Assembly (NCBI RefSeq): GCF_020515625.1
Contig: NZ_JAIWPJ010000002.1
Location: 558,001-622,000, forward strand
Source of the DNA: Natrinema amylolyticum
GTDB lineage: Archaea > Halobacteriota > Halobacteria > Halobacteriales > Natrialbaceae
Length of the DNA stretch: 64,000 nt
Reading direction: 5' to 3'
Shown here: positions 3,888 to 31,768 of the stretch, one piece after another
Layout of the letters: every line of letters starts with the position of its first letter
How positions within the stretch are numbered: position 1 is the first letter of the stretch
Made by a program: the position numbers and the translations under genes
The notes under the pieces: model-generated
Database searches by the model: none
Seen by the model: the letters and a program-made list of their open reading frames with translations, nothing else
Told to the model about the DNA's origin: nothing

Positions 3888-3891
3888 TTAT
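3888..3891. repeat. TTAT candidate target duplication, left
   Basis: TTAT abuts the left inverted repeat, and the same four bases abut the right inverted repeat at 5607-5610. A match of four bases alone is weak; it counts only together with the inverted repeats. Confidence 0.4.
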
Positions 3892-3923
3892 CAATAGTCG
3901 GTAATACGGTTTCTTTATTCAGA
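3892..3923 (+). repeat. Left terminal inverted repeat (putative)
   Basis: The inner 18 bp (3906-3923) match the complement of 5575-5592 with one mismatch. The outer 14 bp match at about 8 positions. Confidence 0.5.
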
Positions 3924-4105
3924 GCTGAGTGTGAAACTCGTGGTGAGTATAGGGCAAACAGGTAACGAAGCGACGACCGATTTCTCCTGGAGATAGCAGA
4001 AACGACGTGCTGAATACAGAGTATTGAATGCAGAGCGTCTCTAGCGTTCCTGCAAGAAATCGTAGATAAACGCTGGAGAAAGCTTATTAGTGTCGGTGTA
4101 CCTGA

Positions 4106-4414
4106 ATGAATATGGACGGAGATGGCGGTGGTGGCACAATGGGGGGTCTGCATGGTGATGTAGGAGGGGGTGTAAATGGGGATACGGAAGCTAGAATGGA
4201 GAACGCAGACGGAGACTCTAGGACTTCAGCCCTTCAGTCCATGGGATACATAGATAATGGAACTGGGATGGGTCGGAGGGAGGGAGACTCTACGGATGCT
4301 GGACATTCAGTTCTCCAGTCAGTCTTACTGATAACAGTAGCAGTATTCGTCGGGGGTTCTCTCCTGTACTTCCTCATAACAGGTATATTGGCTATGTTTG
4401 GTGTAACCCTGTAG
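4106..4414 (+). CDS. Small Gly/Asp-rich tail-anchored membrane protein
   Basis: Hypothetical protein of up to 102 residues. The first half is rich in Gly, Asp and Met (DGDGGGGTMGG, HGDVGGGVNGD). A single hydrophobic segment occupies about residues 72-98 near the C-terminus, so it would be a tail-anchored protein facing the cytoplasm. A TATA-like ttatta at 4084-4089 lies 23-28 bp before a second ATG at 4112, so the true start may be 4112 as a leaderless message. It is the only gene carried by the putative inverted-repeat element apart from the nested IS. Base composition is lower in GC than the neighbours, which suggests transfer. I do not recognise the family. Confidence 0.5.
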   Translation: MNMDGDGGGGTMGGLHGDVGGGVNGDTEARMENADGDSRTSALQSMGYIDNGTGMGRREGDSTDAGHSVLQSVLLITVAVFVGGSLLYFLITGILAMFGVTL

Positions 4415-4519
4415 TGAGCCGTTCCACTCTGGTAACTGTCTGAAGAATACGCTTTCATACCCCGACTCTCAATAACTGCAACCACCGACACCATTTCTGC
4501 TGGAATTTTGTGGGATATA

Positions 4520-4528
4520 CGCGCTGTG
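4520..4528. repeat. IS target-site duplication, left copy
   Basis: CGCGCTGTG, repeated directly at 5463-5471. The exact length is 8 or 9 bp because the element end is G/C ambiguous by one base. Length fits the ISH1 group of the IS5 family. Confidence 0.8.
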
Positions 4529-5462
4529 GGCCTTGTTTAGACGCGTAAGATTCGTGGTGTTAGAGCCTCACGGCTTGCTCGATGTTTCTGACGGCGGCCT
4601 TTAAGACGAGCTCTCTGAACTGTCCAAACCACGTTCTAGCCCGCAACGTCTCGCCGAACCGATGTTTCAATGCGAAGAAGATTGCTTCAACGATCGAGCG
4701 GCGGTGATAGACGTTCTCGTCGTGGCGAGCGTTGTGCGCCTTGTCAAGTCCATAGAACTCACGATGTTTGATCACTGGGCGGATTCCAGCATCCCTGAGT
4801 TCGTGCCGGAGCGCGTCCCAGTCGTAGCTTTTGTCGGCTGTGATCGTGGTTAGCTGTGCCAGATTTCTCGTGAGTACCTGCCGTCCAACTTGGGTGTCAT
4901 GGGGCTGTTTCATCGAGCAATGAATGTCGAGGATGACGCTAGTATCGCAATCGACGAGCGCCGTCGTCTTGATATCGTCAAAATTGTATCCGACACGGAG
5001 GACGTAGTGACGACTGGCTTGATGGCGTTTGAAGCCGGTTGCGTCGATCGCCTGAACGTCGCCGAGCTCGTGCAGCGAGACAGACAGCCGCAGCAACACC
5101 CGCCAGATCCGCATTGTGAGATCCTGTTTCCGGGTACAGACGGTTGTGAAATCCGGTAGCTGATCCACCGCAAGGCCGAGTTTTGCCGCGATTCTGGGCA
5201 TCTCACGCAGAATGTCGAGCAACCGACGGTACGGCTGGTTCAGGTACTCTCGAAGGCAGTGAATCGAGACAATTACCCAGTCAGCATAGCCGCCGTCACC
5301 TTTCCTGACCGCCGGTGCTGGCTCGCCAGTGACAGCGTTCTGGGACAAATCGACACATCGGTCGGTAAACCGGGCGAGTTGAGACGGCATACTCGCTGCT
5401 TCCTCATTCACCTCCACATAATCCCGGTCAAGACGGCAACTGAGCAGCGTCTAAACGTGGCC
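4529..5462 (-). mobile_element. Complete IS5-family (ISH1-type) insertion sequence
   Basis: The 934-bp element has 16-bp terminal inverted repeats, GGCC(TT/AC)GTTTAGACGC, at 4529-4544 and 5447-5462 with two mismatches. It is flanked by identical 8-9 bp direct repeats and contains one intact transposase on the minus strand. Identical duplications and an undamaged reading frame suggest recent insertion. It lies inside the older inverted-repeat element. Confidence 0.85.
4560..5417 (-). CDS. IS5-family transposase
   Basis: This 285-residue DDE transposase catalyses cut-and-paste or copy movement of the surrounding IS. The catalytic triad is visible: Asp125 in AIDATGF, Asp195 in TADKSYDW and Glu244 in RRSIVEAIF, with the YHRRSIVEAIFFALKHRF block typical of the IS4/IS5 DDE_Tnp_1 fold. 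The reading frame is complete and fills most of the element, leaving about 30-45 bp at each end. Met10 is an alternative start. The frame and motifs look functional. Confidence 0.92.
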   Translation of the reverse strand: MEVNEEAASMPSQLARFTDRCVDLSQNAVTGEPAPAVRKGDGGYADWVIVSIHCLREYLNQPYRRLLDILREMPRIAAKLGLAVDQLPDFTTVCTRKQDLTMRIWRVLLRLSVSLHELGDVQAIDATGFKRHQASRHYVLRVGYNFDDIKTTALVDCDTSVILDIHCSMKQPHDTQVGRQVLTRNLAQLTTITADKSYDWDALRHELRDAGIRPVIKHREFYGLDKAHNARHDENVYHRRSIVEAIFFALKHRFGETLRARTWFGQFRELVLKAAVRNIEQAVRL

Positions 5463-5471
5463 CGCGCTGTG
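5463..5471. repeat. IS target-site duplication, right copy
   Basis: CGCGCTGTG, identical to 4520-4528. Confidence 0.8.
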
Positions 5472-5742
5472 TATTCAGCACGGCTCTTCCAATATCATCG
5501 GTGACTGAGAGAAGTGCCAGCGTTAGATTCACATCTATGGTTACCGAACCGACCGATTCGCTTTCAGGTATGTTTCTGAATAAAGAAATCGTGCTACTAT
5601 CTACTGTTATTGGCACTACCTCTGCGTTGCTTCCTGCCGTCGACGTCCAGCGAACGCGGTCATCGATGGTCTCGACAGTTGATCCGATGACGGACCGGGA
5701 CCGATAAAAACGAGCGACGAAACGCGCTGGACCGAGCCGTCT
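5472..5742. other. Right part of the putative element and 3' flank of the next gene
   Basis: It carries the right inverted repeat (5575-5606) and TTAT (5607-5610). Removing the IS restores a 70-odd-codon minus-strand frame that starts at 5616 and runs across the inverted repeat, but nothing else supports it as a gene. 5611-5742 is the presumed 3' untranslated region of the gene at 5743-6774. Confidence 0.45.
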
Positions 5743-6774
5743 CTAGCCGTCAGTCGTCTCGTACGTGACGGGCAGTGTCGTGTCTCCGTCGACGTCGATG
5801 GTCCGTTCGTCCGACTCGTTCCCATCCACGGTCACGGTGAACGAGTACTCCCCGTCTGCGCGCTCGAACTCGACTTCACCGTTCCCATCGACGCTTTTCC
5901 GCTCTTTCCCCTGCAGACTCAGCGATTCCCGCTCGAGCGCGACGGTCGCATTGTCGATCGGGTCACCGTTCCCGTCTCGCACGACGAACGTCACCGTGCT
6001 GTCGTCGTCGTTCGAATCATCACTGCTCGAGTCGTCATCTCCGAAGTCGTCGCTCTCTTCCTCGAGCGTTAGCGTGAGCGGCTCGTCGCCGCCGTCGATC
6101 TCGACGCTGTCTTCCGCGGACTGGTAGCCGTCCGCGTTCGCGGAAACGCTGTAGTTCCCGTTCTCGACCTCCCACTCGACCTCACCGTCTGCGCCGGTCG
6201 TTTTCTCACCGCTGAAGGAGCCATCGTGGCTGACGTCGGCCCCTTCGACCGCGTTGCCGTCCTGATCTTCCACGGTCACGGTCAACGTGTGCGGTCCGTC
6301 ATCGCCGTCGCTGCTGCTTCCGTCGCTACCATCGTCGCTGTCATCTCCGTCCGTATCGCCATCACCATCGCTACCATCGCTGCTATCTTCGTCCGTATCG
6401 CCGTCTCCATCGTCGCTATCGCTGCTCTCCCCGCTGTCGTTATTGCTATCATCGCCGCCATCGCTGTCATCGCCGCCGTCAGTGGTACCGCCATCGCCGC
6501 TATCGCCGCTCTCTCCGCTGGTAGCATCGGTTTCGTTCCCGCCGCCGGCGTCCGCAGCGTCGCCGTCCGACGAGTCGATATCGTCGTCAGCCGGTTGGTC
6601 CGCGTCGTCGAATCGGTCAGTGACCGACCCGACGGCGCTGCCGACGGAGGCCCCGCTCGCAGCCAGTAACAGCCCGGCCAAGAGAAAGACGATGCCACTG
6701 ACGGTGAGCAGAATCTGGACACCGCGCTGAATCGATCGGGTCTTCGTCCGCTGTCCTTGGATATTGCGACGCAT
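5743..6774 (-). CDS. Exported acidic protein with two Ig-like/Cna-B-type domains
   Basis: The 343-residue protein has a basic N-terminus and one hydrophobic segment at about residues 20-45 that anchors or exports it. A stalk of about 100 residues made almost only of Asp, Ser, Gly and Glu follows (SDGDGDTDGDDSDD-type repeats). Two beta-sandwich domains come next, each with the carboxypeptidase-regulatory/Cna-B pattern: LTVTVEDQDGNAVEGADVSH and TFVVRDGNGDPIDNATVALE, with NGNYSVSANADGYQ and DGEYSFTVTVDG strands. This looks like a cell-surface protein held above the S-layer by the acidic stalk. No sortase-like or PGF motif is visible. A TATA-like box sits about 30 bp upstream. Ligand is unknown. 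Confidence 0.8.
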   Translation of the reverse strand: MRRNIQGQRTKTRSIQRGVQILLTVSGIVFLLAGLLLAASGASVGSAVGSVTDRFDDADQPADDDIDSSDGDAADAGGGNETDATSGESGDSGDGGTTDGGDDSDGGDDSNNDSGESSDSDDGDGDTDEDSSDGSDGDGDTDGDDSDDGSDGSSSDGDDGPHTLTVTVEDQDGNAVEGADVSHDGSFSGEKTTGADGEVEWEVENGNYSVSANADGYQSAEDSVEIDGGDEPLTLTLEEESDDFGDDDSSSDDSNDDDSTVTFVVRDGNGDPIDNATVALERESLSLQGKERKSVDGNGEVEFERADGEYSFTVTVDGNESDERTIDVDGDTTLPVTYETTDG

Positions 6775-7582
6775 ACTTGAGAAATTGTGATTCGTGATCG
6801 GTTATTCTGTGCGCGCCGTCTCGTCTCCGTCCGATACTGCCGCTTTCCGCTGGGTTGCGATCGACCGGCCGGCGGTACCTCTGCTCTCGGTCCCGGACGC
6901 TACTGTCGTGAACGCCACGTCGCCCGAGGTGCGCTGCTGGCTGCACCGCCTGTAGCGTTCGGTCACCCACGAGTTCGATCGATCATATGCGAGTGTTTTC
7001 ATTACGCGGCTCTTTCGCGGTTCGGCGGTTCACTATACGGACGATAAAACCGTTTCAGTACCGAAAACCGTCTGCGACGACGATCACAGTTCGAGCGGGA
7101 GAACCGGATAGCGCGCTCGTTATACGGTGTCTATAGCGGGAGAAACGGCGGGAAACACTCCCACTGTATGAAAATGAGCGCACTCGAGAATTTCCCTTCG
7201 GTGGGAGTCTCTCCAGTCGATAGCGGTCAGATCTATACCATGTAGTTTCTCTCAGTCTGGATATCGACTGCCAGTCACCCGGACACCATCGCTGATGAGC
7301 GAGAGGAGCGGTCCCTCACCGTTCGGACGGTATGGTGACCTGCGGGAGCTGGTTACAACGAGATGATCGACTTCGTAATCAGGCGTTCGGTAACACTATT
7401 TTACCCCGTCTGGAGGGGGTCCACCAGTCACCGCTTGACGAGTCGTAAAGCCGGTTTTGGCCGCTCATACGGCCCGTTGATCCGTCACCGAACGTTCAGT
7501 CTCCGGGCGGATTTCGAGGGCAGGGCGTGAACAGTCGTCGTGATTTTTCACCGCTCCCGCGGTACACTCGATCGAGAGAGCC
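6775..7582. other. Gene-less region between two outward genes
   Basis: About 800 bp with no supported gene. It contains the promoter of the minus-strand gene at its left end and a small hairpin ACCCC/GGGGT at 7403-7420. AT-rich runs near 7140-7260 suggest decayed or foreign DNA continuous with the accessory patch to the left. No domain-bearing frame is visible. Confidence 0.5.
6801..6807 (-). promoter_or_regulatory. TATA box of the exported acidic protein
   Basis: On the minus strand agaataac lies about 27-33 bp before the ATG at 6774, the usual spacing for a leaderless haloarchaeal promoter. Confidence 0.4.
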
Positions 7583-8044
7583 ATGAGTGAATCGACGACG
7601 AACGACCCGGCGACCGGTGAATCGCACACCCGTGATCAGGGCGAACCGGGCGGGCAGAAGTGGTTGAGCGGCTTCGTTTCGCTGATCGGCCTGTGGCTGG
7701 CCGCCTCGCCGTTCGTCTACGAGCCGGCGCAGTCCATGCTGTGGAACAACCTGTTGATCGGCGGCGCGATTTTCCTGCTCGCGGGGTACAACTACTACCG
7801 GATCAGCAACGGCCATCCGACCAGTACCGGCGTGATGTCGCTCGTCGCCCTGCTCGCTCTGTGGGCGGTCGTCTCCCACTTCGCGATCGACGGCCAGTTC
7901 GCGATCGACGGCCTCGAGGTCGCCGGTGCGGGACTGGCCTGGAGTAACATCGTCTCGGGACTCGTCGCCGCTGCGCTGTCGGCGTACATCGCCTATACCG
8001 CCGGCCGCGACGTCCCGCGGGGAACGGCCGCCGGAACGCGATAG
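7583..8044 (+). CDS. SPW-repeat membrane protein
   Basis: This 153-residue integral membrane protein has a hydrophilic N-terminus of about 25 residues and four hydrophobic helices. Two SPW-type repeats are visible: WLSGFVSLIGLWLAASPFV with W-NNLLIGGAIFLLAGYNYY, and a weaker second copy around LAWSNIVSGLVAAALSAYIAY. The SPW family (PF03779) has no established function. The following gene is convergent, so it is a single-gene unit. Confidence 0.8.
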   Translation: MSESTTNDPATGESHTRDQGEPGGQKWLSGFVSLIGLWLAASPFVYEPAQSMLWNNLLIGGAIFLLAGYNYYRISNGHPTSTGVMSLVALLALWAVVSHFAIDGQFAIDGLEVAGAGLAWSNIVSGLVAAALSAYIAYTAGRDVPRGTAAGTR

Positions 8045-8087
8045 CGACCGCTCCGCGATCGGTTTTTTTCGTCGCTGCCCGTCGCGA

Positions 8088-9074
8088 TCAGGGGTATCGC
8101 TCGGACGGCGCGTCCGACGTGCGTCGCTCGAGCAGATCGAGGACGGGTTCGCTCGCGGCCAGTCGAATTCCCAGTTTGGTGAGCCGATCCCGTATCGCGC
8201 CGGGAACGAGCGTGCCGTACAACGATCCGAGCAGGGGGATCGGACCCACGCGGTAGTGCGTGTCGGGATTCGAAACGGTCGCGGCCTCCCGAATCGTCGC
8301 GGCGACTCGATCCGGGTCGTTGACGAGCGGACCGCCGCCTTCGACGGCGCGGAGTCGCCGGAGGACGCGATAGAGATCGGTGTACCCCGTCGGACTGACG
8401 ACGGTCACCTTCCTGCTCGTGTCGCCCCGATTCGCATCCGTCTCTCCGGTGTCGGCGTCGGCTCGCGACGCTGCTCGCGCGGTCGCGGCCGCGTCGTCGA
8501 CCGCCGTCACGGCGCGGTCGTAGAACGGCGTCCGAACGATTCCGGGTTGCACGACGACGACCTCGACGCCCGAATCGGTCAACTCCTGTCGAAGCGCGTC
8601 GCTGAGACTCGCCATCGCCCACTTCGACGCGGTGTAGCCGCCGATCCCCGCGAGCGCGAGCCGATCCGCGGCGCTGGTGACGGTGATGATCCGACCGGCA
8701 CCGCGCTCGCGCATTCGGGGAAGTACCGCCCGAATCAGTCGATGCGGCCCGAAACAGTGGACGGCGAACTGGCGCTTGAGCAGCCGCGTCGGCACGTCTT
8801 CGACCGGGCCGAACTGTCCGTAGCCGGCGTTGTTGACGAGGCAATCGACGCCGCCGGCCTCGTCGCGAATTCGCTCGACGACGCGTTCGATATCGTCGGG
8901 CTCGGTCAGGTCGAGCGCGGCGACGTCGGCCCCGCGGTCGGCCAGTCGCTCGAGGCCGTCCCGATCACGGTCTCGAGCGGTCGCATAGACCTGCCAGCCC
9001 TCGTCGAGCAGTGCGCGCGCCGTTTCGTAGCCGATGCCGGACGAACAGCCGGTCACGAGTGCGGTTGTCGGCAT
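8088..9074 (-). CDS. Short-chain dehydrogenase/reductase
   Basis: NAD(P)-dependent oxidoreductase of the classical SDR family, 328 residues. It shows the cofactor motif TGCSSGIG at residues 8-15, NNAGYGQFG near 87, the catalytic Ser in TVTSAADR and YTASKWA with the YxxxK pair. The C-terminal 100 residues are longer than in minimal SDRs and contain a variable RADADTGETDANRGD insert. The early position of NNAGYGQFG and the long tail resemble the retinol-dehydrogenase-like group that acts on lipophilic alcohols, but the substrate cannot be read from the sequence. It converges on the SPW gene. Confidence 0.9.
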   Translation of the reverse strand: MPTTALVTGCSSGIGYETARALLDEGWQVYATARDRDRDGLERLADRGADVAALDLTEPDDIERVVERIRDEAGGVDCLVNNAGYGQFGPVEDVPTRLLKRQFAVHCFGPHRLIRAVLPRMRERGAGRIITVTSAADRLALAGIGGYTASKWAMASLSDALRQELTDSGVEVVVVQPGIVRTPFYDRAVTAVDDAAATARAASRADADTGETDANRGDTSRKVTVVSPTGYTDLYRVLRRLRAVEGGGPLVNDPDRVAATIREAATVSNPDTHYRVGPIPLLGSLYGTLVPGAIRDRLTKLGIRLAASEPVLDLLERRTSDAPSERYP

Positions 9075-9191
9075 GGGTCGTGCTACGACGGCACCGAAGA
9101 AGGCAGTCCCCAGTTGTCAGACGCGGTCATTTTCACAGCCATCGACGGCTCCGAGAGCGGCCGGTAGTCACCGAGCGCGCGTCCAGCGCGA

Positions 9192-9935
9192 TCAGTCCTC
9201 GAACGGGTCGACGTCGTCCGGCGGCCCTCGTTCGTCATCGTTCGGCGGACCCCGTTCGTCATCGTCCGGCGGTCCCCGTTCGACGGCTTCCGATGGTTCT
9301 CCTTCGTCGTCGTCCGGTGAGTCGCGGTCGCTCGCTGCCGAGTCGTCCGAATCGTCGACCAGTCCGGCCTCCTCGAGCGCTCGCTCGAGGACGTCGAGTC
9401 CGGAGTCGTCGTCCGCATCGTCGGAGTCGTCCGGTTCGGCGGGGTCGTCGGTGTCTGTGGATTCGTCCGATTCGGTGGGGTCGTCTGGTTCGGTGGGCTC
9501 GTCTGGTTCGGCGGGCTCATCTGGTTCAGCGGGCTCGTCTGGTTCAGCGGGCTCATCTGGTTCAGCGGGCTCGTCTGGTTCAGCCGGTTCCTCGGCGTCG
9601 TCCTCCTCGTCGGAACCGTCATCGACGGCCGGTTCGGAATCAGTCGGCTCCGAGTCGGGTGACGGTTCCGTCGGGCTGCTATCGTCACCGTCGGCGGATG
9701 AATCGTCGGTATCGGTTTCAGTGGCGGTCGCGTCGTCGGGCTCGCGTTCGTCGGTCGTCGCGTCCGACTCGACGGCCGACGGGTCATCGTTCTCCACCGC
9801 CGCGGACGAATCCGTCTGGTCCGCCCGCAGGTCCGGGGCGAAGACCACCGTGAGGACCCCGAACGCGAGCAAGACGGCCACGATAGTGAGGAGCAGCGCG
9901 AACGTCGATGGGAGGTCGTCTCGAAGGCGGGACAT
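9192..9935 (-). CDS. Membrane-anchored acidic repeat protein
   Basis: The 247-residue protein begins MSRLRDDLPSTFALLLTIVA, with one membrane helix at about residues 10-32. The rest is low-complexity and extremely acidic. It includes five PAEPDE hexapeptides plus degenerate copies, one short ordered-looking stretch (LDVLERALEEAGLVDD), and a terminal ERGPPDD repeat. The start at 9935 was chosen because it puts the hydrophobic segment at the N-terminus; the open frame reaches 10154 but the extra residues look non-coding. Function is unknown; a surface stalk or spacer is the simplest reading. Confidence 0.65.
   Translation of the reverse strand: MSRLRDDLPSTFALLLTIVAVLLAFGVLTVVFAPDLRADQTDSSAAVENDDPSAVESDATTDEREPDDATATETDTDDSSADGDDSSPTEPSPDSEPTDSEPAVDDGSDEEDDAEEPAEPDEPAEPDEPAEPDEPAEPDEPAEPDEPTEPDDPTESDESTDTDDPAEPDDSDDADDDSGLDVLERALEEAGLVDDSDDSAASDRDSPDDDEGEPSEAVERGPPDDDERGPPNDDERGPPDDVDPFED
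9463..9594. repeat. 18-bp tandem coding repeat
   Basis: Seven 18-bp units, several nearly identical (tctggttcagcgggctcg and variants), encode the PAEPDE hexapeptide array on the minus strand. Near-identity at the DNA level points to recent slippage expansion. Confidence 0.8.
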
Positions 9936-10153
9936 TCGACGGATCAACCGTAGACGGCCCGTCTGCTTTGTTACTCTCAGCCCACAGGAAAATGATGTGA
10001 CACTTACTGACTGATACGGGGACACTTCCGAGAGTATCGGTCCGATTCGGCGGCGGGCCGCGATTTCGGTCTCGGCACGGGACGAATCCCCCGCGGGCGG
10101 CCGAACAATGATATGGCCGGCCCACCCAGTAGGAACAACGGACCTCGCCGACA

Positions 10154-12949
10154 ATGACGAGTCATTACGATCACGCGCAGGTACAGGAGTTCTGGCAGTA
10201 CGTCTGGGAGCGCGACGACGTCTACGCGCTCGATGCCGACGCCACGGATCCGACCTACGTCCTCGGCATGTTTCCCTACACGTCGGGCACGCTCCACATG
10301 GGGCACGTCCGCAACTACGCGATTACGGACGCCTACTCGCGCTATCGTCGCATGCGGGGCGACGACGTCCTCCACCCGATGGGGTGGGACGCGTTCGGCC
10401 TCCCCGCGGAGAACGCGGCCTTCGACCGAGCGACCGACCCCGAGTCCTGGACGCAGGCGTGTATCCGGCGCATGCGCGAGGAACTCGAGACGATGGGCTT
10501 CGGCTATGACTGGTCGCGCGAAATCACTACCTGCGAGCCCGACTACTATCAATGGAACCAGTGGCTGTTCAAGCGACTCTACGAGGCGGGGCTCGTCGAG
10601 TACGAGGCGGCGACGGTCAACTGGTGTCCCGACTGCGAGACGGTGCTGGCCGACGCCCAGGTCGTCAATCGCGAGGACGAGCGCAGCGAGTCCTCGGATC
10701 AGGCGAGCGGCGAGGACGACCACGGCGAGTCCTCAGACCGGGGGAGCGGCGAAGTCGCGAGCAGCGACGGCGAGCGGGTCTGCTGGCGATGTGAGACGCC
10801 CGTCGGTCGGCGCGAACTCGATCAGTGGTTCTTCACGATCACCGACTACGCCGAGGAGCTTCACGAGGGACTGGACGACCTCGAGGGCTGGCCCGACGGC
10901 GTCCGCGAAATTCAGCGCAACTGGATCGGTCGGCAGGAAGGGGCACGGATCACGTTTGAAGTGTCCGCTTATGGCGACGCTGACGGTGGCAGTGATGGCG
11001 ACGGTGACGACGGCGATCGAACCGTCGACGTGTTCAGCACGCGGCCGGAGACGATCTACGGCGCGACCTACCTCGCCGTCTCGCCGGGTCACGAACTGGC
11101 GCGGGACTTGGCTGAGGGTAATGATCGCGTCGCCGAGTACGTCGAGACGGTCCGCGAGCGGGACCCCGGCGAAGTCGGGTTTTCGGGCGTCGAGACCGAT
11201 GCCACCGCAATTCACCCGCTGACCGGCGAGGAACTCCCGGTCTACGTCGCCGGCTACGTCCTCGAGGACGTCGGCACCGGTGCCGTGATGGGCGTCCCCG
11301 GCCACAACGAGCGCGACCACTCGTTCGCGCTCGAGCACGACCTACCCGTCGAGCGCGTGATCGTTCCCGACGAGGACCGGGAGTTCGACGTCGAAAGCGA
11401 GGCCTACACCGGCGAGGGGGTCCTCGAGAACAGCGGCGAGTACGACGACCTCGAGAGCGAGGCGGCCCGCGATCGGATCGTGGCGGATCACGACGCGCTC
11501 GCGGACGACGTCACCTACCGGCTCCGGGACTGGCTGATCTCCCGGCAGCGCTACTGGGGGACGCCGATCCCGGTCGTCCACTGCGACGACTGCGGCCACG
11601 TCCTCGTGTCCGACGAGGACCTCCCCGTCGAACTGCCGGAATTCGTCCGGACCACGGGCAACCCGCTTGACGCGGCCGAGGAGTGGAACGAGACGACCTG
11701 TCCGGACTGCGGCAGGCCCGCGCGCCGCGAGACGGACACGATGGACACCTTCGTCGACTCCTCGTGGTACTACCTGCGTTTTCTCTCGCCGGACCTCGCG
11801 GACGCGCCGTTCGATACGGACGTCGCGAACGACTGGCTGCCGATCGATCTCTACGTCGGCGGCGACGAGCACGCCATCCTCCACCTGCTGTACACTCGCT
11901 TCTTCACGAAGGCGCTGGCCGACCTCGACCTCCTCGAGCGGCGAGAGCCGATTCGAGAGCTCATGAGCCAGGGGACGGTGCTCTACGACGGCGAGAAGAT
12001 GTCCAGTTCGAAGGGCAACGTCGTCACCCCCGAGGAGTACGGCGCGGAGACGACGCGGCTGTTCGTGCTCTCGGCGGCCCACCCCGAACAGGACTTCGAG
12101 TGGACCGCCAACAACGTCCGCGGGGCCTACGACCTCCAGCAGACCCTCTACCGAATGGCGGCGGACTTCGTCGAGGAGGGCGATGCGCGCGTCGAGCGGC
12201 GGGATCACGACGACTACGTCGCCCGAGAGATCGACCGGACGATCGCCGCGGTCACCGAGGAGTACGAGCGGTTCCGGTTCCACCGGGCCGCCACCGAGAT
12301 CCGGGAACTCGCCCGCCTGCTCCGGCGCTACCGCGAGTACGACCGCCCGAACGGTGACGTCTACCGCCGCGGCCTGCTGACGCTGGCCGCGCTGATCGTC
12401 CCGATGGCACCCCACCTCGGCGAGGAGTGCTGGAACAAACTCCGCGGCGAGGGGCTCGCCGTCGAAGCCGACTGGCCCGAACCCGAACGCGACGCGTCGG
12501 CCTACCAGCTCGAGCGCCGGCTGGTCGACCGCACGCTCGAGGACGTCCGAGACATCGTCGACGTCGCCGACATCGACGAGCCGGAGCGGATCGAACTGGT
12601 CGTCGCCGCCGAGTGGAAGTACCGGGCTGCCGAGTTGGCAAGCCGGGCTGCCGGCGGGGACGACGGCTCCGATCCCGTCGATTCGATCGTCGAGAGGGTT
12701 CTCGCGGACGATTCGCTCGCCGCCCCCGATCGAGAGCGCGTCGCGGCGTTCGCGGGCGAACTCGTCGGGCGCGACGGCGGGGACGGCGGGGAGATGCTCG
12801 GCGCGGACCGCGAACTAGCGGTTCTCGATCGGGCGTCCTGGCTCGTCACCGACGAGTTCGGTGCGGCCGTCGCCGTCCGACGGGCGACCGGTGACGACGA
12901 ACAGGCGGCCAAAGCCCGGCCGGGAAAACCCGCGATTCACATCAGTTAG
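10154..12949 (+). CDS. leuS: Leucyl-tRNA synthetase
   Basis: Charges tRNA-Leu with leucine. At 931 residues it has the class Ia signatures: HMGH at residues 48-51, KMSSS at 615-619, and the GTGAVMGVPGHNERD block of the CP1 editing domain. Architecture and length are bacterial-type LeuS, as is usual in haloarchaea. A zinc-ribbon (NWCPDCETVLAD ... VCWRCETPVGRRELDQWFF) is interrupted by an acidic Ser/Gly/Glu insert of about 35 residues. A second Cys pair set (HCDDCGHV ... TCPDCGRPA) follows. The C-terminal anticodon-binding domain contains another acidic insert. The ATG at 10154 gives the conserved YDHAQVQEFW opening. Confidence 0.97.
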   Translation: MTSHYDHAQVQEFWQYVWERDDVYALDADATDPTYVLGMFPYTSGTLHMGHVRNYAITDAYSRYRRMRGDDVLHPMGWDAFGLPAENAAFDRATDPESWTQACIRRMREELETMGFGYDWSREITTCEPDYYQWNQWLFKRLYEAGLVEYEAATVNWCPDCETVLADAQVVNREDERSESSDQASGEDDHGESSDRGSGEVASSDGERVCWRCETPVGRRELDQWFFTITDYAEELHEGLDDLEGWPDGVREIQRNWIGRQEGARITFEVSAYGDADGGSDGDGDDGDRTVDVFSTRPETIYGATYLAVSPGHELARDLAEGNDRVAEYVETVRERDPGEVGFSGVETDATAIHPLTGEELPVYVAGYVLEDVGTGAVMGVPGHNERDHSFALEHDLPVERVIVPDEDREFDVESEAYTGEGVLENSGEYDDLESEAARDRIVADHDALADDVTYRLRDWLISRQRYWGTPIPVVHCDDCGHVLVSDEDLPVELPEFVRTTGNPLDAAEEWNETTCPDCGRPARRETDTMDTFVDSSWYYLRFLSPDLADAPFDTDVANDWLPIDLYVGGDEHAILHLLYTRFFTKALADLDLLERREPIRELMSQGTVLYDGEKMSSSKGNVVTPEEYGAETTRLFVLSAAHPEQDFEWTANNVRGAYDLQQTLYRMAADFVEEGDARVERRDHDDYVAREIDRTIAAVTEEYERFRFHRAATEIRELARLLRRYREYDRPNGDVYRRGLLTLAALIVPMAPHLGEECWNKLRGEGLAVEADWPEPERDASAYQLERRLVDRTLEDVRDIVDVADIDEPERIELVVAAEWKYRAAELASRAAGGDDGSDPVDSIVERVLADDSLAAPDRERVAAFAGELVGRDGGDGGEMLGADRELAVLDRASWLVTDEFGAAVAVRRATGDDEQAAKARPGKPAIHIS

Positions 12950-24388: not shown

Positions 24389-25708
24389 TCAGACCCGTTT
24401 TTCGACCTGTCGGATCCCTTCCGAGAGCGCCCGTCGTTTGAAGTACATCGCTTCGACCGCGAATACCACCGCCGCGATGACGACGACCAGCCAGAAGACC
24501 GCGGGCAGTTGCGAGTAGAGGTACCACGTCAGCATGACGAAGAACGCGGCCGAGCCGACGACGCCGAGCAGCGGCGGGATCGGGTTGACGTCGACCGCGT
24601 CGGAATCGCGCATCGTCAGTGCGAGCGCGCTCATCGCGCCGAAGACGACGATGAAGGCCAGCGAGGCGAACTCCACGACGGCCTCGAGGCTGCCGAGGAC
24701 GGTGAACGCGGCCGTCAGGAGGCCGATGACGATCACGGTTCGTTTCGGGGCGGCGTCGGCGTCGGGGTCGCCCATCTCGTGGGGCAAGATGTCGTCACCG
24801 ATCAGGTTCTTGGCGAAGATGGCCTCGCTGAACAGTGTCGAGTTGATCGCGCTGGCCGTCGAGATGAGGCCGGCGAGGCCGACCGCGAGCGCGAGCCACT
24901 TCGAGATGAGCAGTGCGCCGTAGAGCAGCGCGGGTTCGGGCTGGGCGGCGACGACCTCCTCGGGGAGGAGGGTCGTGATCACGAACCCGACGAGAACGTA
25001 GATGGCCGCCGCAATCGGGATCGAGACGAACACGCCCTTCGCGAGCGTCTCGTCCGGATCCTCGAACTGCTCCTGGTCGTAGAACAGCAGTTGCCATCCC
25101 TCGAAGGAGACGAAGCCGACGGAGGCCGCGAGGATGGGATTGATTCCGAACTCTGAGAAGCCGAGTCGCAGTTGGTAGTTCGCAGCGCCGTACCACAGAC
25201 CGATCAGGCCGAACGCGGCGATGATGCCCGCCTGTACGAACACGAGGTACCGTTCGACCGCCGCCGACGATCCCGCGCCGAGGAGGTTCAACCCGACGAA
25301 GACCGCGAGCACGCCGACAGAGAGGAACTGCCGGATCGGCAGCCCCCAGACGTACTCGTAGCCGATCAGCATCTGCCCGTACATGCCGAACGCGTAGGCG
25401 TACATCGCCATCGTCCCGATATACCCGACGACGAGCGTCCAGCCGACTACGCCCGCGATCGTCGATCTCCCCGTCAGTTCCTCGATGTACGTGACCGAGC
25501 CGCCGTCGCTGTCGGTCGCGTCGTTCAATTTGACGTACGAGTAGGCACAGCACAGGACGACGACGGTCGCGAGACTGTAAGCGAACCACGTCAGGATCCC
25601 CGCGGCGGCCACGACGATGCCGATCGCCGCGTAGATCCCGCCGCCGACGATGCCGCCGACGCCGAGCGCAACGGCCGTTCCGAGCCCGAATCCGCTCTCC
25701 TCGCTCAT
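24389..25708 (-). CDS. APC-family permease
   Basis: The 439-residue amino acid/polyamine/organocation transporter has about twelve helices. The first helix has the conserved unwound motif GVGGIVGGGIYAAIG, which binds the substrate backbone in this superfamily. Other features are FVSFEGWQLLFYD in helix 6 and the STASAINSTLF segment. The ATG at 25708 overlaps the stop of the upstream solute-binding lipoprotein by 4 bp, so the two are translationally coupled. No ABC permease or ATPase is present nearby. Substrate is unknown; an amino acid, amine or peptide fragment is likely. Confidence 0.9.
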   Translation of the reverse strand: MSEESGFGLGTAVALGVGGIVGGGIYAAIGIVVAAAGILTWFAYSLATVVVLCCAYSYVKLNDATDSDGGSVTYIEELTGRSTIAGVVGWTLVVGYIGTMAMYAYAFGMYGQMLIGYEYVWGLPIRQFLSVGVLAVFVGLNLLGAGSSAAVERYLVFVQAGIIAAFGLIGLWYGAANYQLRLGFSEFGINPILAASVGFVSFEGWQLLFYDQEQFEDPDETLAKGVFVSIPIAAAIYVLVGFVITTLLPEEVVAAQPEPALLYGALLISKWLALAVGLAGLISTASAINSTLFSEAIFAKNLIGDDILPHEMGDPDADAAPKRTVIVIGLLTAAFTVLGSLEAVVEFASLAFIVVFGAMSALALTMRDSDAVDVNPIPPLLGVVGSAAFFVMLTWYLYSQLPAVFWLVVVIAAVVFAVEAMYFKRRALSEGIRQVEKRV

Positions 25709-27348
25709 GACTCTGATCCCACCGTGACGACCTCGTTTTCCCACGCGAGCCGAGGATTGACCCGCGCGATCGGATGGACGCGGAAGTTCTCGATGCCCGC
25801 GTCCACGGCGAAGCTGTTATCGAACGAACAGATCGGCAGACAGACCCGGTCCTCGAGCAGACGAGTGATCGCTTCCTCGTAGAGCCGGCGTCGCCGCTCG
25901 CGGTTCTCGGTCTCGCGAGCCGCCGTGAGCCGTTCCATGACCGCGTCCTCGCGGTAGAACGTCCCGTTGGTCACTCCGGCCGTGTTCTCGTGGAACGTCG
26001 GATAGAGGTGCGAGTCCGGATCGGGCGTCCCGGTTATCTCGCCGACGAACACCGAGTAGTCGCGCTCGGAGCCGGTGACGGACCGCTCGAGGAAGACGGA
26101 TTCGGGCTTCGAGATCACGAGCGCGCCGTGACTGGCGTCCCGGAGGCCGCCGGCCAGCGCCTCGCCGAACTCCTTGTGTTTCGGATCCGTCGTGGTGAGG
26201 ATGCGGAGTTGGCCGCTCGCCTCGTCGGCCTCGCGGAACAGTTGCCGAGCCCTCTCGGGGTTCGTCTCGTTCGCGAGGTCGGCCCACTCGTCGGTCGGCA
26301 TGTCCCACTCCGCGGCGACCTGCGGCGGTAGCGGACTGTACTGGCGCTCTCCCATCGGCTCGATGAACTCGGCGACCGCTTTCTCGAGATCGAGACAGTA
26401 GCTGATCGCCTCCCGAACCCGCGGGTCGGTCGTCGGCCCCTGGTTCAGGTTGAAGCCGAAGTAGAACGACGTGTACCCCTGCCGTCGCGTCACCGACGCG
26501 TTCGACACGTCGCTGACGTGATCGACGATCATCGGAGAGACCGGCTCGATCGCATCGTTGCGGTTCGTTCGGAGGCTCGTCAGCTGCGTCATCGGGAACT
26601 CGACGTACGCCACGGTGAATCGATCGATCGCGGGCGTCGGCTCACCCCAGTAGTCGTCCCAGCGCGACAGCGTGGCCTTCGTTTCCGCGCTGAACGACGC
26701 CACCTCGAACGGACCGGCACCGATCGGGTCCGTCGCGAACGCCTCCCTGTCGTCTTCCCGCTCCTGGCGGGGAACGATCGGGTAGGAGAGGGCGTGGTCG
26801 AGGGCCGGATACGGAGCCTCGAGCGTGAACCTGACGGTGCGTTCGTCGACGGCGTCGACCGACTCGATCGGACTCACTCGCCACGCCGTCGGCGCGTCTT
26901 CCTCGACGGGCGCGGTAAACGAGTAGGCCACGTCGTCGGCGACCACCTCGCGTCCGTTCTGGAACCGCGCCCGGTCGTCGAGTTCGACGACGGCCGTCCG
27001 GCCGTCGTCCTCGAACTGCGGTTCACCGGTGGCGATTTTGGGTACGGTTTCGGTCCCGTTACTGTACTCGTAGAGCCCGTCGAAGATTCGGCCGATCGCC
27101 TGTTCGGAGCCGATAGCGCGTGCACGGATCGGATCGAGCGTAATCGGCGGACGGAGCGTTCCGACGCGAAAAGTGGTCACCGATTCCGAGCCGAGCATCG
27201 CCGAACAGCCCGCGAGTGCACCGGTGCTCGCAGCACCAAGAGCGGCGAGCAGGCCGCGCCGCGTCGTCTCACGGGACCACTCGGTCGTCCGTTCGTTCGT
27301 CCACCCCGGAGCGGGGAATTCGTCCGGTGTCGTCTCGTTGGCTCCCAT
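25705..27348 (-). CDS. Family 5 extracellular solute-binding lipoprotein
   Basis: This 547-residue lipoprotein resembles peptide/nickel-binding components of ABC importers. It has a Tat signal with Arg30-Arg31 (TTRRGLLAALGAA) and lipobox LAGC with Cys48. The SBP_bac_5 landmarks are present: LRPPITLDPIRARAIGSEQ, the DDRARFQNGREVVADDVAYSF block, and repeated Tyr/Trp-rich stretches. It is the first gene of a two-gene operon with an APC permease (4-bp overlap), which is not the usual partner for this family. Whether it delivers substrate to the APC protein is inference. Confidence 0.9.
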   Translation of the reverse strand: MGANETTPDEFPAPGWTNERTTEWSRETTRRGLLAALGAASTGALAGCSAMLGSESVTTFRVGTLRPPITLDPIRARAIGSEQAIGRIFDGLYEYSNGTETVPKIATGEPQFEDDGRTAVVELDDRARFQNGREVVADDVAYSFTAPVEEDAPTAWRVSPIESVDAVDERTVRFTLEAPYPALDHALSYPIVPRQEREDDREAFATDPIGAGPFEVASFSAETKATLSRWDDYWGEPTPAIDRFTVAYVEFPMTQLTSLRTNRNDAIEPVSPMIVDHVSDVSNASVTRRQGYTSFYFGFNLNQGPTTDPRVREAISYCLDLEKAVAEFIEPMGERQYSPLPPQVAAEWDMPTDEWADLANETNPERARQLFREADEASGQLRILTTTDPKHKEFGEALAGGLRDASHGALVISKPESVFLERSVTGSERDYSVFVGEITGTPDPDSHLYPTFHENTAGVTNGTFYREDAVMERLTAARETENRERRRRLYEEAITRLLEDRVCLPICSFDNSFAVDAGIENFRVHPIARVNPRLAWENEVVTVGSES

Positions 27349-27565
27349 AGAGATCCGTTTCGTGACCGAGAACGGGTCGAACCTATCGTGACGAACGACG
27401 TTGTGTGGCCGGCCTGCACCTGATGGGAGTCAGTAGCGGCTCGAATCGGGGCGATTATTGGATCTCGGTTTGCCGGAGATAGAATTAACTGAGTGTATCT
27501 GTACGTATAACTATCAACGCGATTGCGTGTGCCGCGGCTACGGACACCGTATATCTGGACACACT

Positions 27566-30500
27566 ATGTCAGAATTGAATGATGTGCCGAACGGACCGAG
27601 CGAGGGACAGGGAGACGGCGTCGAAGTCACCGTCGGTATCGATCGACTCGAGGCGTTCCTGACGGCCGACGATCCCGACGTCAGAGAGTACGCCGCCAAG
27701 ACGCTGGCCAACGAGGCGTCGAATCGTCCGGGGGACGTCCGCTCCGCGGTCGAATCGCTGACCGACCGTCTCGGGGACGAGCCGTCGATCAGGTCTCACG
27801 CGGCCGCGGCGCTGTCGGCCGTCGCGGCCGCCTTCCCGAGGGAGACCCGAGACGCCGCCCCGGCGCTGACCGACCGGCTCGAGGGATCGGGGGCGGTACG
27901 GGCGGACGCGGCGGACGCGCTCGCCTCGATCGCCGCAGACGATCCGAGCGCCGTCAGCGATTCGGCGACGGCGCTCGCGGCCTACGTGACCGCCGACGAG
28001 GAGCGCGTCCGCGTCCGAACGACGGACGCGCTCGCCTCGATCGCCGACGACGACCCCGAATCGGTCGTTCCCGTCGCTGACGAGATCACGGCCGCGACCG
28101 ACGACGAGACCGTCGCGGTCCGAGAGAACGCGACGGCGACCCTCGCAGCGATCGCGGCCCACGACCCCGACGCCGTCCTCAATGCCGTCGATCGGCTCGT
28201 CGACTGTCTCGAGGACGAGCCGGCCGTCAGGGAACACGCCGCTCGAGCGCTCCGGTCCGTCGCGGCCGAACGACCGTCAGCGGTCGCGACGGCGGTCGAG
28301 CCGATCGCCGCGGGGCTCACCGACGAGCGCGAATCCGTCCGCGCCGACGTCGCGGCGGCGCTCGAAGCCGTGGCGACGGACCGTCCCGAGTCCGTCGGCG
28401 CGGTCGTCGACCGACTCGCGTCGAGCCTCGACGCCGAGGCCGCCGTCCGCGAGGCGGCCGTCGCTGCCGTCAGGGCCGTTATCGGGACCGTCCCCGATGC
28501 GGTCGTCCCGGCCGTCGGCCCGCTCGTCGAGCGACTCGAGGATTCACTCGAGACGGTCCGGATCGATGCGGCCGCCGCGCTGGCGACCCTGGCGACGGAG
28601 CGGCCCGACGCGGTCGAGCCGGCCGTCGAACCGCTTGCGGACCGGCTGGCGGACGGCGATCCGCCGGTTCGACGGCACGGCGTCGCGGCCATCGCCACCG
28701 TCGGGGACGAGACTCCCGCGGCGCTCGTCCCCGTCGTCGGCGAACTCGCGGACGTGCTCGCGGCCGACGACAACGATGACGACGTGCGGCTCGAGGCCGC
28801 CCGCGCCATCGCGGCGGTCGCCGAAACGCGCCCCCGTTCGATCCGACCGATCGTCCCGCGACTCGCCGACCGACTCGCCGACTCCCACGAACCGGTTCGC
28901 GATCACGCGGTCGACGCGCTCGGCGCAGTCGCGCTCGCGGACGCCGACGACGAGGTCGACGTCCCGGCGCTGATCGACCGGCTCGAGGCGGACGACGAGT
29001 GGGTTCGGGGCTACGCCGCCCGCAGGCTGGCCGAGATCGCCGAATCAGGGGTCGCCGACCCGCATCCGGCGGTCCGCTCGCTGCGTCGGCGCCTCGACCA
29101 CGACAGCGCGGCGGTGCGGCGGTCGGCCGCCAGGGATCTCGTCCCGATCGCCGCCGAGCGGCCTCGAGAGGCGCGCGAAGCGGTCCCATCGCTCGGCGAC
29201 CGGCTCTCCGACGATGACGCGAGCGTCCGAAACAACGCGGCGCTCGCGCTCTCGCGACTCGCCGAGACGCATCCCGACGACGTCCGCCCGGCGCTCAACG
29301 GGCTGTTCGCCGTGGTCGACGACTCGGACCGCAGCGTCCGCGAAACGGTCCGCGAGACGCTCACCGCGGTCGCATCCGTCTCGCGCGGCGACTGCCGGCC
29401 ACCGGTCGCGCTCGCCGTCGCGGAGGTCGACGCCGACGAGGCGGCGATCCGCGTCGCCGCCTGCGAGGCACTGGCCGTCCTCGGCTGCGAGACGGGGGCC
29501 GAGACGACGGCCGCCGTCGGCGCCGTCTGCGACCTGCTCGTCGAGCCGACGTCGAGGGTCCGCGCCGCGGCCCTGGACACGCTCGAGACGCTCCTCGCCG
29601 CGGATATCGAGACCGAGCCGACGCCGTCCGAGGCGGTCGTCGAGATCGTCTCGGCCGACGACGAGCGCGCGACGGCGGTGGCGACGGCGCTCGCCGACAT
29701 CGCGCGGATCGACCCGGAACTGATCGCCGAGGCCGCGACCCCGCTCGTCGAACAGCTGCGAGCGGCGACGGGCGACCGACGGCGGGCGCTGGTGCGGACG
29801 CTGACGACGGTCGTCGGGGCGACCGATCGCAGACCGGTTACGGAACTCCTCCTCGGTGACCTCGAGTCGGCCGACGCCGACCGAGCGTCGATCGCCCGCG
29901 ATATCGCCCGATCGGCGGCAGCCGCTCCGGCCGACGCGGTGACCTGTCGAGATCGACTGATCGACCTGGTCGACGATGACGACGACGCGGTTCGGGGGTA
30001 CGCGACGCTGGCGCTCGGGACGCTCGCCGTCACGGGCGACGACGGCTCCGCGCTGAGCGAGGCGCTCGGCGACGTCGATGACCGGCTGCTCGACGCGGCC
30101 TCGCTGGTGAGCGGCGGCGAGACGCCGAGTCTCGACGGGATCGAGGATCAGCTCTCCGGGCTGGGAACGCGCGTCGCAGACGAGCCGTGGGTCGCCGGCC
30201 TCGCCGTTCTCGCGCTCTCGGTGCTCGCCGACGAGGCCGAGCGCCTGCGGCCGACCGGCGTCTCGGAGATCGCCACTGGGCTCACCGTCGAGAGTCCGGT
30301 CGTCCGAGCCACCGCCGGGCGCACGCTCGCGACGATGGCCGCGGACGATCCCCGCGGACTCGAGGCGGCGACCGACGAGTTGCGCGCCGCGCTGTCTGAC
30401 CCCGACGCCGACGTCCGAGCGACGGCCGGGTCGGCCCTGGCCGAGGTCGCCGCAGCGACTGACTCGCTCGCGGCCGACGAGGATCTCGTCGCCGCGCTCC

Positions 30501-31768
30501 GCTCGCGCCTCGCCGATCCCGACGGGCGCGTCCGAGCCCGTGCGATCCGGACGCTGACGGCGCTCGAGGCGGTCGACTCGCTGCCCGCGATTCAGCCGCT
30601 GGTCGACGACCCTGTTCCCGCCGTCTCGACCGCGGCGACGACCGCGACGGCGCGGCTCGAGGACGCTCGCGACGAGGGGGTCGCCGAGTCCGACTGGCCG
30701 ATGGCCCGCGCGGGTCCGGCGGGCACCGGGTTCGCCGGCGACGGGGACGCGCTCGGCGGGCGGCCCGCCAAACGGTGGCGCGTCGAGACCGACGGCACCG
30801 CCGACGCTCCGCCGACGCTGGTCGGCGACACCGTCTTCGTCACGACCGACGACGGCCGCGTCGCCGCACTGGCGCTCGAGGACGGGAGCGAGCGCTGGCG
30901 GGTCGAGACCGACGCACCGATCGGAACCACGCCCGCCGTGGTCGACGAGACGGTCTACGTCGGCGGTGACGCCGCGATCGACGCGCTCGATCTCGAGACG
31001 GGAGACCGGGCCTGGCGATATCGAACGGACGCCGCCGTCCGAACGTCGCCGGTCGTCGCCGACGGAACGGTCTATGTCGGCGGCGAGACCCTCCACGCGA
31101 TCGACGCCGACACCGGCCGGCCGGTCTGGACTGCACCGCTCGCGGACGCGCTCGTCGGCGTCGCCGTCGACGACGGCGTCATGTACGCCGCCTGTGAGGA
31201 GCGGGTGATCGCGCTCGCGGCCGACGACGGGAGCCGGCGCTGGGAGACTGACCTCGACCTCGAGGGCGCGGGACGGACGTCACCGGCGGTCGCCGATGGA
31301 ACCGTCTTCGTCGCCCGTGGCGGAACCCTCTACGCGCTGTCGACCGCCGACGGATCGCGCCGGTTCCGGTTCGATACCGGCGGTCGGTTCGCCGCCTCGC
31401 CGGCCGTCGCGGACGGGCGCGTCTACGCCGCCAGCACCGACGGGAGCGTCTACGCGGTCGACGCGACGACGGGTGCCGAGCACTGGCGGGTCGACGCCGG
31501 CGAGCTGACGACCGATCCGGTCGTCATCGACGACGCCGTCTGCCTGGGAACCGGCGACGGCCACGTCACCGCGCTGGCGACCGGCGACGGCTCCCGACAG
31601 TGGGAACTCGCGGTCGAGCCCGTCACGGACGTGACGGCGATCGCCGTCGCGAGCGGTCGGCTCTGCCTCGTCGGACCCGACGGGATCACGGCGATCGGGG
31701 ACGCACAGTCGTCCTGGAAGGAGTCGATTTCGGGACTGTTCACGCGGTTCGGAAACGGGTCGTCGTAG
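27566..31768 (+). CDS. Giant HEAT-repeat and PQQ-like beta-propeller protein
   Basis: 1400 residues without signal peptide or membrane helix, so cytoplasmic. Residues about 25-1020 are an uninterrupted array of roughly 25 HEAT-type helical repeats of 38-40 residues, each with the theme D.....VR..AA.AL..IA...P. From about 1040, WPMARAGPAGTGF opens a PQQ/quinoprotein-type propeller with repeated DGSERWRVETDAPIGTTPAV and VYVGGD-like blades to the C-terminus. No PQQ-binding or dehydrogenase residues are evident, so the propeller is likely a protein-interaction surface. ATG 27566 gives MSELNDVPNG; the frame runs 36 codons further upstream but those lack the acidic bias. It is divergent from the SBP gene. 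Function is unknown. Confidence 0.85.
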   Translation: MSELNDVPNGPSEGQGDGVEVTVGIDRLEAFLTADDPDVREYAAKTLANEASNRPGDVRSAVESLTDRLGDEPSIRSHAAAALSAVAAAFPRETRDAAPALTDRLEGSGAVRADAADALASIAADDPSAVSDSATALAAYVTADEERVRVRTTDALASIADDDPESVVPVADEITAATDDETVAVRENATATLAAIAAHDPDAVLNAVDRLVDCLEDEPAVREHAARALRSVAAERPSAVATAVEPIAAGLTDERESVRADVAAALEAVATDRPESVGAVVDRLASSLDAEAAVREAAVAAVRAVIGTVPDAVVPAVGPLVERLEDSLETVRIDAAAALATLATERPDAVEPAVEPLADRLADGDPPVRRHGVAAIATVGDETPAALVPVVGELADVLAADDNDDDVRLEAARAIAAVAETRPRSIRPIVPRLADRLADSHEPVRDHAVDALGAVALADADDEVDVPALIDRLEADDEWVRGYAARRLAEIAESGVADPHPAVRSLRRRLDHDSAAVRRSAARDLVPIAAERPREAREAVPSLGDRLSDDDASVRNNAALALSRLAETHPDDVRPALNGLFAVVDDSDRSVRETVRETLTAVASVSRGDCRPPVALAVAEVDADEAAIRVAACEALAVLGCETGAETTAAVGAVCDLLVEPTSRVRAAALDTLETLLAADIETEPTPSEAVVEIVSADDERATAVATALADIARIDPELIAEAATPLVEQLRAATGDRRRALVRTLTTVVGATDRRPVTELLLGDLESADADRASIARDIARSAAAAPADAVTCRDRLIDLVDDDDDAVRGYATLALGTLAVTGDDGSALSEALGDVDDRLLDAASLVSGGETPSLDGIEDQLSGLGTRVADEPWVAGLAVLALSVLADEAERLRPTGVSEIATGLTVESPVVRATAGRTLATMAADDPRGLEAATDELRAALSDPDADVRATAGSALAEVAAATDSLAADEDLVAALRSRLADPDGRVRARAIRTLTALEAVDSLPAIQPLVDDPVPAVSTAATTATARLEDARDEGVAESDWPMARAGPAGTGFAGDGDALGGRPAKRWRVETDGTADAPPTLVGDTVFVTTDDGRVAALALEDGSERWRVETDAPIGTTPAVVDETVYVGGDAAIDALDLETGDRAWRYRTDAAVRTSPVVADGTVYVGGETLHAIDADTGRPVWTAPLADALVGVAVDDGVMYAACEERVIALAADDGSRRWETDLDLEGAGRTSPAVADGTVFVARGGTLYALSTADGSRRFRFDTGGRFAASPAVADGRVYAASTDGSVYAVDATTGAEHWRVDAGELTTDPVVIDDAVCLGTGDGHVTALATGDGSRQWELAVEPVTDVTAIAVASGRLCLVGPDGITAIGDAQSSWKESISGLFTRFGNGSS

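Follow-up and report, generated by a model that had tools for sequence, protein, structure and literature searches.

The locus analyzed here raises the question of whether a family 5 solute-binding protein (SBP) can work together with an APC family permease. In the window (the whole 64-kb stretch of DNA that was analyzed), the genes of such a pair lie on the same strand, the SBP gene being the first (Table 1). The SBP ORF starts with ATG and ends with a TGA stop at 25707-25705. The sequence-only reading had described a 4-bp overlap of this stop with the ATG of the APC gene, and this proved exact, since the sequence at 25708-25705 is ATGA. The downstream neighbor is a convergent topoisomerase I gene on the opposite strand, which ends at 24386, 2 bp away; on the other side, a divergent HEAT/PQQ gene, also on the opposite strand, starts at 27458 or 27566. 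Given this orientation of the flanking genes, SBP and APC most likely form a two-gene transcription unit. Furthermore, probes for OppB, OppC, and OppD revealed no Opp-type permease or ATPase gene in the 64-kb window, in line with the earlier statement that no ABC permease or ATPase is encoded nearby.

Table 1. Features of the SBP-APC unit in the window
Feature	Position	Strand	Basis and remarks
Family 5 solute-binding lipoprotein (SBP) gene	25705-27348	-	ORF and translation; 547 aa; upstream gene of the pair
SBP_bac_5 domain, aa 101-456	25981-27048	-	Pfam PF00496, E=1.3e-56
Tat-type twin arginine, R30 R31	27256-27261	-	Translation; both nearly invariant across 33 SBPs
Lipobox LAGC with C48 as predicted lipid anchor	27205-27216	-	Translation; G47 invariant and C48 nearly so in 33 SBPs
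ATGA shared by the SBP stop and APC start codons	25705-25708	-	Sequence; 4 bp; APC ATG at 25708-25706
APC family permease gene	24389-25708	-	ORF and translation; 439 aa; downstream gene of the pair
Q159, column of the MjApcT TM5 lysine K158	25232-25234	-	PDB alignment, 3gi9 K versus 3gi8 (mutant) A
E203, TM6 region	25100-25102	-	E at ≥95% across 24 class I rows; Q in 25/26 class II and solo rows

The N terminus of the SBP reads ...TTRRGLLAALGAASTGALAGC48, combining a twin arginine with a lipobox, and SBP_bac_5 is the sole Pfam domain of the protein. Its structure model (pLDDT 85.7) matched best the Opp/Dpp/Nik-type family 5 SBPs (top match: Z 42.4, 2.3 Å over 469). The matched proteins bind opines, sialic acid, dipeptides, and nickel-histidine, and because these ligands are so diverse, the fold matches name no ligand. 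The absence from the pair SBPs of the Asp that binds the peptide amine in DppA says nothing special either, since this residue is also missing from ABC-linked sister SBPs. The APC protein matched AA_permease_2 (PF13520, E=9.7e-27), and its structure model (pLDDT 80.6, pTM 0.83) had MjApcT (3gia) as its best fold match (Z 46.5, 2.4 Å over 407 residues). Membership in the APC sequence family and a LeuT-type fold thus coincide in this carrier, which is predicted from the model to be ApcT-like.

In a first survey of 242 genomes of the class, SBP matches with at least 55% identity were considered, and every one of them adjoins an APC match. The in-depth survey, with Halobacteria as its scope, covered 391 haloarchaeal genomes, an even sample of a larger group with one genome per species. 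At a cutoff of E≤1e-126, the APC clade of the window's type was present in 23/391 genomes. Each of the 23 has the SBP gene directly ahead of the APC gene in the same orientation, and the SBP stop codon overlaps the APC start codon (class I). Twenty-two of the overlaps are 4 bp long (14 ATGA and 8 GTGA), and one is 8 bp long. The recurrence of this junction in 23/23 genomes indicates that the pairing is more than chance. Identity to the window's proteins falls to 49% (SBP) and 63% (APC), with the junction still kept. The class I genomes have the family codes f1 (16 genomes), f3, f4, and f9; examples are Natrinema versiforme, Halopiger xanaduensis, Halalkalicoccus paucihalophilus, Haloarcula amylovorans, and Halosolutus gelatinilyticus. 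Six named loci that match genomes already counted were kept out of the counts. The class I SBP profile was also run against a larger named collection and matched haloarchaea only. Beside several class I pairs, proteins of similar size hold the place of the window's HEAT/PQQ gene (27458-31768, plus strand), which encodes a large protein with HEAT repeats joined to a PQQ-type beta-propeller and is divergent from the SBP gene.

A search with the Haladaptatus halobius SBP as the query yielded 12 loci whose flanks were read, and these revealed the opposite order, in which APC directly precedes SBP (class II). It is present in 7/391 genomes (G125, G266, G273, G286, G325, G355, and G383), and two more loci are on plasmids of Haladaptatus halobius and Halomarina sp. 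BND7, making nine loci in total. In eight of them the distance between the genes is -4, -4, -4, 2, 2, 3, 13, or 18 bp, and in the ninth (Halomarina sp. BND7) the genes overlap by 4 bp. The twin arginine and the lipobox are present in all nine SBPs. When the G125 APC was used as the query, 8/391 genomes had matches at E≤1e-135. The six matches at E≤1e-197 are all paired with an SBP. The other two (approximately 1e-137) are in G161 and G373, the one in G161 being a solo APC outside the clade (L072), while the APC of G325 fell short of the E≤1e-135 limit. None of the 391 genomes was found to carry both classes. Together, the two classes place the pair in 30/391 haloarchaeal genomes with six family codes, so that its restriction to a single strain, against which the sequence-only reading had proposed a survey for conserved pairs, does not apply.

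The surroundings of the pairs are changeable. Flanking genes vary from locus to locus, and several copies of the pair sit on large plasmids. The gene context was searched for a clue to the ligand, and the varying flanks gave no general one. A kynureninase gene directly precedes the class II pair in L049 (6962-8227) and L150 (11072-12265). Among the seven class II genomes, it is seen only in G125 and G355, which share one genus code and 84.9% mutual identity; for these two genomes, it gives a weak hint at an aromatic amino acid as ligand. Individual irregularities were also noted. A class I SBP (L047) has Tyr in place of the lipobox Cys, and the class I APC of G290 (L121) is split by an in-frame stop into 82+356 codons; each may reflect decay, a sequencing error, or real variation. 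G194 (L048) carries a damaged pair with a split SBP and a short APC. Unless these records contain errors, the damaged pair and the in-frame stop mean that some genomes can do without the unit.

The relationship between the two classes was analyzed in trees, from which the damaged pair of G194 (L048) and the split SBP of L089 were omitted. In a 55-row SBP tree with L001 and L002 as far outgroups (the L001 branch being very long), class I (25 rows; 100/100) and class II (8 rows; 100/97) were each recovered as a clade, and a joint clade of the two (99/100) excluded the Opp-linked and solo SBPs. One locus is present twice in this tree (L023 = L133), and the handles L019, L049, and L131 also denote a single locus. 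The joint clade was kept with an SH-aLRT of 100 in a 64-row tree to which 20 loci were added, 16 of them Opp-linked and the other 4 devoid of an adjoining Opp or APC gene. In the APC tree, class I and class II each formed one clade (100/100 for both). A joint clade of the two was not rejected (AU p 0.525), and the constrained tree was 1.3 log units better. These trees are compatible with a history in which the genes were paired once, long ago, and later changed their order; two separate recruitments are also conceivable. Across 33 pairs, SBP distances are correlated with APC distances (r 0.93, 0/2000 permutations as high), as would be the case for any linked genes.

It could be argued that two unrelated genes ended up in a common operon and were then disseminated as a unit by plasmids, and the several copies on large plasmids would fit such a frozen accident. 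However, the same SBP clade occurs in two opposite gene orders, and the partner is kept by 23/23 class I and 6/6 class II members of the APC clades, in several families. This already disfavored explanation is very improbable.

Sister SBPs at approximately 34 to 42% identity belong to OppBCDF operons. Twelve SBP positions set both pair classes apart from these ABC-linked sisters, and they are candidate contacts for the APC protein or for the pocket. In L050 (G155, minus strand), an APC gene (9799-11148) is located 310 bp before an SBP-OppBCDF operon (3242-9488). This locus is possibly an intermediate between the ABC-linked and the APC-linked states, or it arose by chance. A related clade consists of solo family 5 SBPs with neither an Opp permease nor an APC adjoining (L029/L056, L032/L057, L037, L162, L163, L164, and L173). 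The existence of these seven loci means that an SBP without ABC genes is by itself no proof of a new partner. A small gene adjoins the solo SBPs L056 and L057, and its L056 copy weakly matches Fer4_15, below the Pfam cutoff.

The pair SBP might instead serve an Opp/Dpp-type ABC importer encoded elsewhere and be merely coexpressed with an APC that handles related nutrients. We scanned 36 pair-bearing stretches of 13 to 64 kb each, using Opp-type probes only. In 35 of them no Opp permease gene was detected, and in the exception (L114) an opp cassette lies in a divergent operon with its own SBP. ABC ATPase probes matched in five stretches: in L114 and, more weakly and without Opp permeases, in L044, L049, L123, and L150, the match in L049 being part of a FecCD-type system. 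In 12 class I genomes, 65 of the 74 OppB matches have a family 5 SBP (SBP5) within 3 kb; for the remaining ones, the SBP5 is at approximately 3 to 5 kb (six matches) or 15 to 20 kb (two matches), or there is none (one match). In 6 of these 12 genomes, including that of the window, each detected OppB is accompanied by an SBP5 of its own no more than 3 kb away.

An unpartnered Opp importer for this SBP in the window's genome was considered and rejected, as all six OppB proteins detected with PF19300 have an SBP5 within 3 kb. A seventh Opp cassette of this genome (L126) was missed by PF19300, which is therefore not exhaustive; it also carries its own SBP. Elsewhere in the same genome (L125, G000:C2:758000-777000, minus strand), two SBP_bac_5 proteins (8169-9875 and 10970-12772) flank a PAP2 phosphatase gene. 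Their Pfam matches look circularly permuted, with the profile start near the C terminus, and in their relatives the profile end is found upstream in the same frame. No Opp permease was called in the 19 kb of L125, and similar split matches occur in several genomes.

Several SBPs can share one ABC permease. OppB homologues occur in 30/30 pair genomes, and 10/30 have an OppB at least 65% identical to that of a sister operon, which leaves room for a pair SBP to share an ABC importer, and the ABC linkage of the sister SBPs points in the same direction. Yet the SBP clade with its two gene orders has no ABC-linked member among those examined, and the shortage of vacant OppB proteins described above also speaks against such service. 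Moreover, the OppB nearest to that of the sister operon is at most 45% identical in G121, G336, G125, and G355. We consider service to a distant ABC importer unlikely. The sequence-only reading had named it as the finding that would contradict a new transporter, and no sign of it was seen, with 6/12 class I genomes lacking a vacant OppB.

We then compared the pair with known systems. It shares with the Opp/Dpp/Nik importers the SBP family, while APC stands in for OppBCDF; no OppB/OppC or OppD/F belongs to the same unit in the 64-kb window. The carrier resembles ApcT-like proteins in sequence (22% identity to MjApcT) and predicted fold; ApcT is not known to depend on an SBP. The TM5 lysine at the Na2 position, which characterizes ApcT-type proton-coupled carriers, is absent from class I: the column holds Q in 25/25 class I proteins and K in 8/8 class II proteins, 16/16 solo proteins, and one mixed locus. 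In BasC, the equivalent lysine sits at the Na2 position, and according to PMC6472337, its replacement by alanine lowered the outer affinity approximately tenfold and abolished much of the Vmax. The same source mentions AdiC, which moves a cation, as having no positive residue at this position. The loss of the TM5 lysine together with the gain of the TM6 glutamate in class I suggests, at the level of aligned residues, altered ion coupling or a cationic ligand.

These residues also bear on a possible role of the pair in nutrient sensing, as a sensor or transceptor composed of an APC turned receptor and a lipoprotein, as in GerAB/GerAC of spores. An APC-fold protein with a lipoprotein partner is indeed common to both (PMC8617281), the position lost in class I is one at which the BasC alanine mutant is impaired (PMC6472337), and one class II APC weakly matches Spore_permease (PF03845, E=4.3e-4, under the Pfam cutoff). 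On the other hand, the lysine is kept in 8/8 class II proteins, and the SBP belongs to family 5 (SBP_bac_5) and is not a GerAC-type lipoprotein. There is neither a conserved signaling partner beside the pairs nor a third conserved gene, such as one for GerAA, adjoining them. A sensory role thus appears quite improbable.

In SLC7-SLC3, too, an APC-fold protein is joined by an extracellular partner, which, as in GerAB-GerAC, is not an SBP. By analogy, the SBP could be an accessory extracellular subunit that assists folding, stability, or gating of the APC without handing over a ligand. LAT1-4F2hc and b0,+AT-rBAT are among the fold matches of the APC, so that APC carriers with a large partner do exist (PMC8617281), and the co-conservation evidence fits this explanation equally well. 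It is nevertheless unlikely: the partner is an SBP_bac_5 protein with no SLC3-type (heavy-chain) domain, and a complete family 5 fold with domain-wide conservation would be needless for a pure scaffold.

The remaining comparison is with SBP-dependent secondary transporters. The pair has their hallmark, an extracytoplasmic SBP genetically tied to a carrier of an ion-driven type. With TRAP and TTT it shares the combination of an SBP and an ion-driven carrier, the function of the pair being judged by analogy, but both the SBP families and the membrane proteins are unrelated: Pfam gives SBP_bac_5 and AA_permease families only, and neither a DctP or TAXI SBP with DctQ/DctM (TRAP) nor a TctC SBP with TctA/TctB (TTT). 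According to PMC12344293, these two were the only SBP-dependent secondary transporters known before the SBP-dependent TAXI-GltS system, consisting of BP0403 and GltS of Bordetella pertussis, was described in 2025. TAXI-GltS resembles the haloarchaeal pair in that a lipoprotein SBP is translationally coupled to a one-protein secondary carrier and neither ABC nor TRAP membrane genes adjoin the two, and in that relatives of the carrier mostly work alone. The parts differ, since there a TAXI SBP with extra domains is combined with a GltS carrier (ESS family), whereas here a family 5 SBP (PF00496) is combined with an APC LeuT-fold carrier (AA_permease_2). Moreover, glutamate binding and gene fusions were demonstrated for TAXI-GltS, while the haloarchaeal pair is known from genes and predicted folds; the function of TAXI-GltS was argued on similar grounds plus ligand binding (PMC12344293). 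The sequence-only reading had listed TRAP and TTT as the known SBP-dependent secondary systems, with none using an APC. The list has to be extended by TAXI-GltS; the statement about APC is consistent with our literature search, which, with subscription journals and preprints mostly outside its scope, found no paper on an SBP-APC pair.

The strict partnership, the two gene orders, the changing surroundings, the separate SBP clade, and the absence of a vacant importer in half of the 12 genomes examined for it favor one functional unit. We propose that the pair is probably a dedicated two-protein, binding-protein-dependent secondary uptake system whose parts are unrelated to those of TRAP, TTT, and TAXI-GltS. 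The SBP would be an ancient acquisition from an ABC importer of the Opp/Dpp type. Anchored by its lipid, it would bind a solute outside the cell and pass it to the APC carrier, which would drive the solute inward by an ion gradient; we infer the SBP-APC contact, the delivery of the ligand by the SBP, the inward direction, and the driving ion. The new kind of binding-protein-dependent secondary transporter suggested by the sequence-only reading is thus strengthened as a dedicated partnership, with a second gene order and a single SBP clade, and its transport role is predicted.

The fold of APC carriers operates by a rocking bundle, and LeuT-fold carriers are not known to be elevators. The known SBP-dependent carriers are elevators or are thought to be, so a LeuT-fold one would be unprecedented. 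The two mechanisms are treated separately in a review (PMC8276074). The authors of PMC12344293 asked why so few kinds of secondary carriers are combined with SBPs, and considered that an elevator mechanism is perhaps needed; more new classes, they wrote, would allow this requirement to be tested. An SBP combined with an APC rocking-bundle carrier is such a test case. There is about an even chance that the pair represents the first non-elevator carrier of the SBP-dependent kind and that its SBP exchanged an ATP-driven partner for an ion-driven one, with both gene orders represented. The partner switch is traceable, with sister SBPs still accompanied by OppBCDF and with an APC gene before SBP-OppBCDF in L050. 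If the proposal is true, annotations would have to be corrected, since in public records the SBP is labeled "ABC transporter substrate-binding protein," next to its partner, the "APC family permease." The SBP-APC unit of haloarchaea may represent a kind of uptake system that is absent from textbooks.
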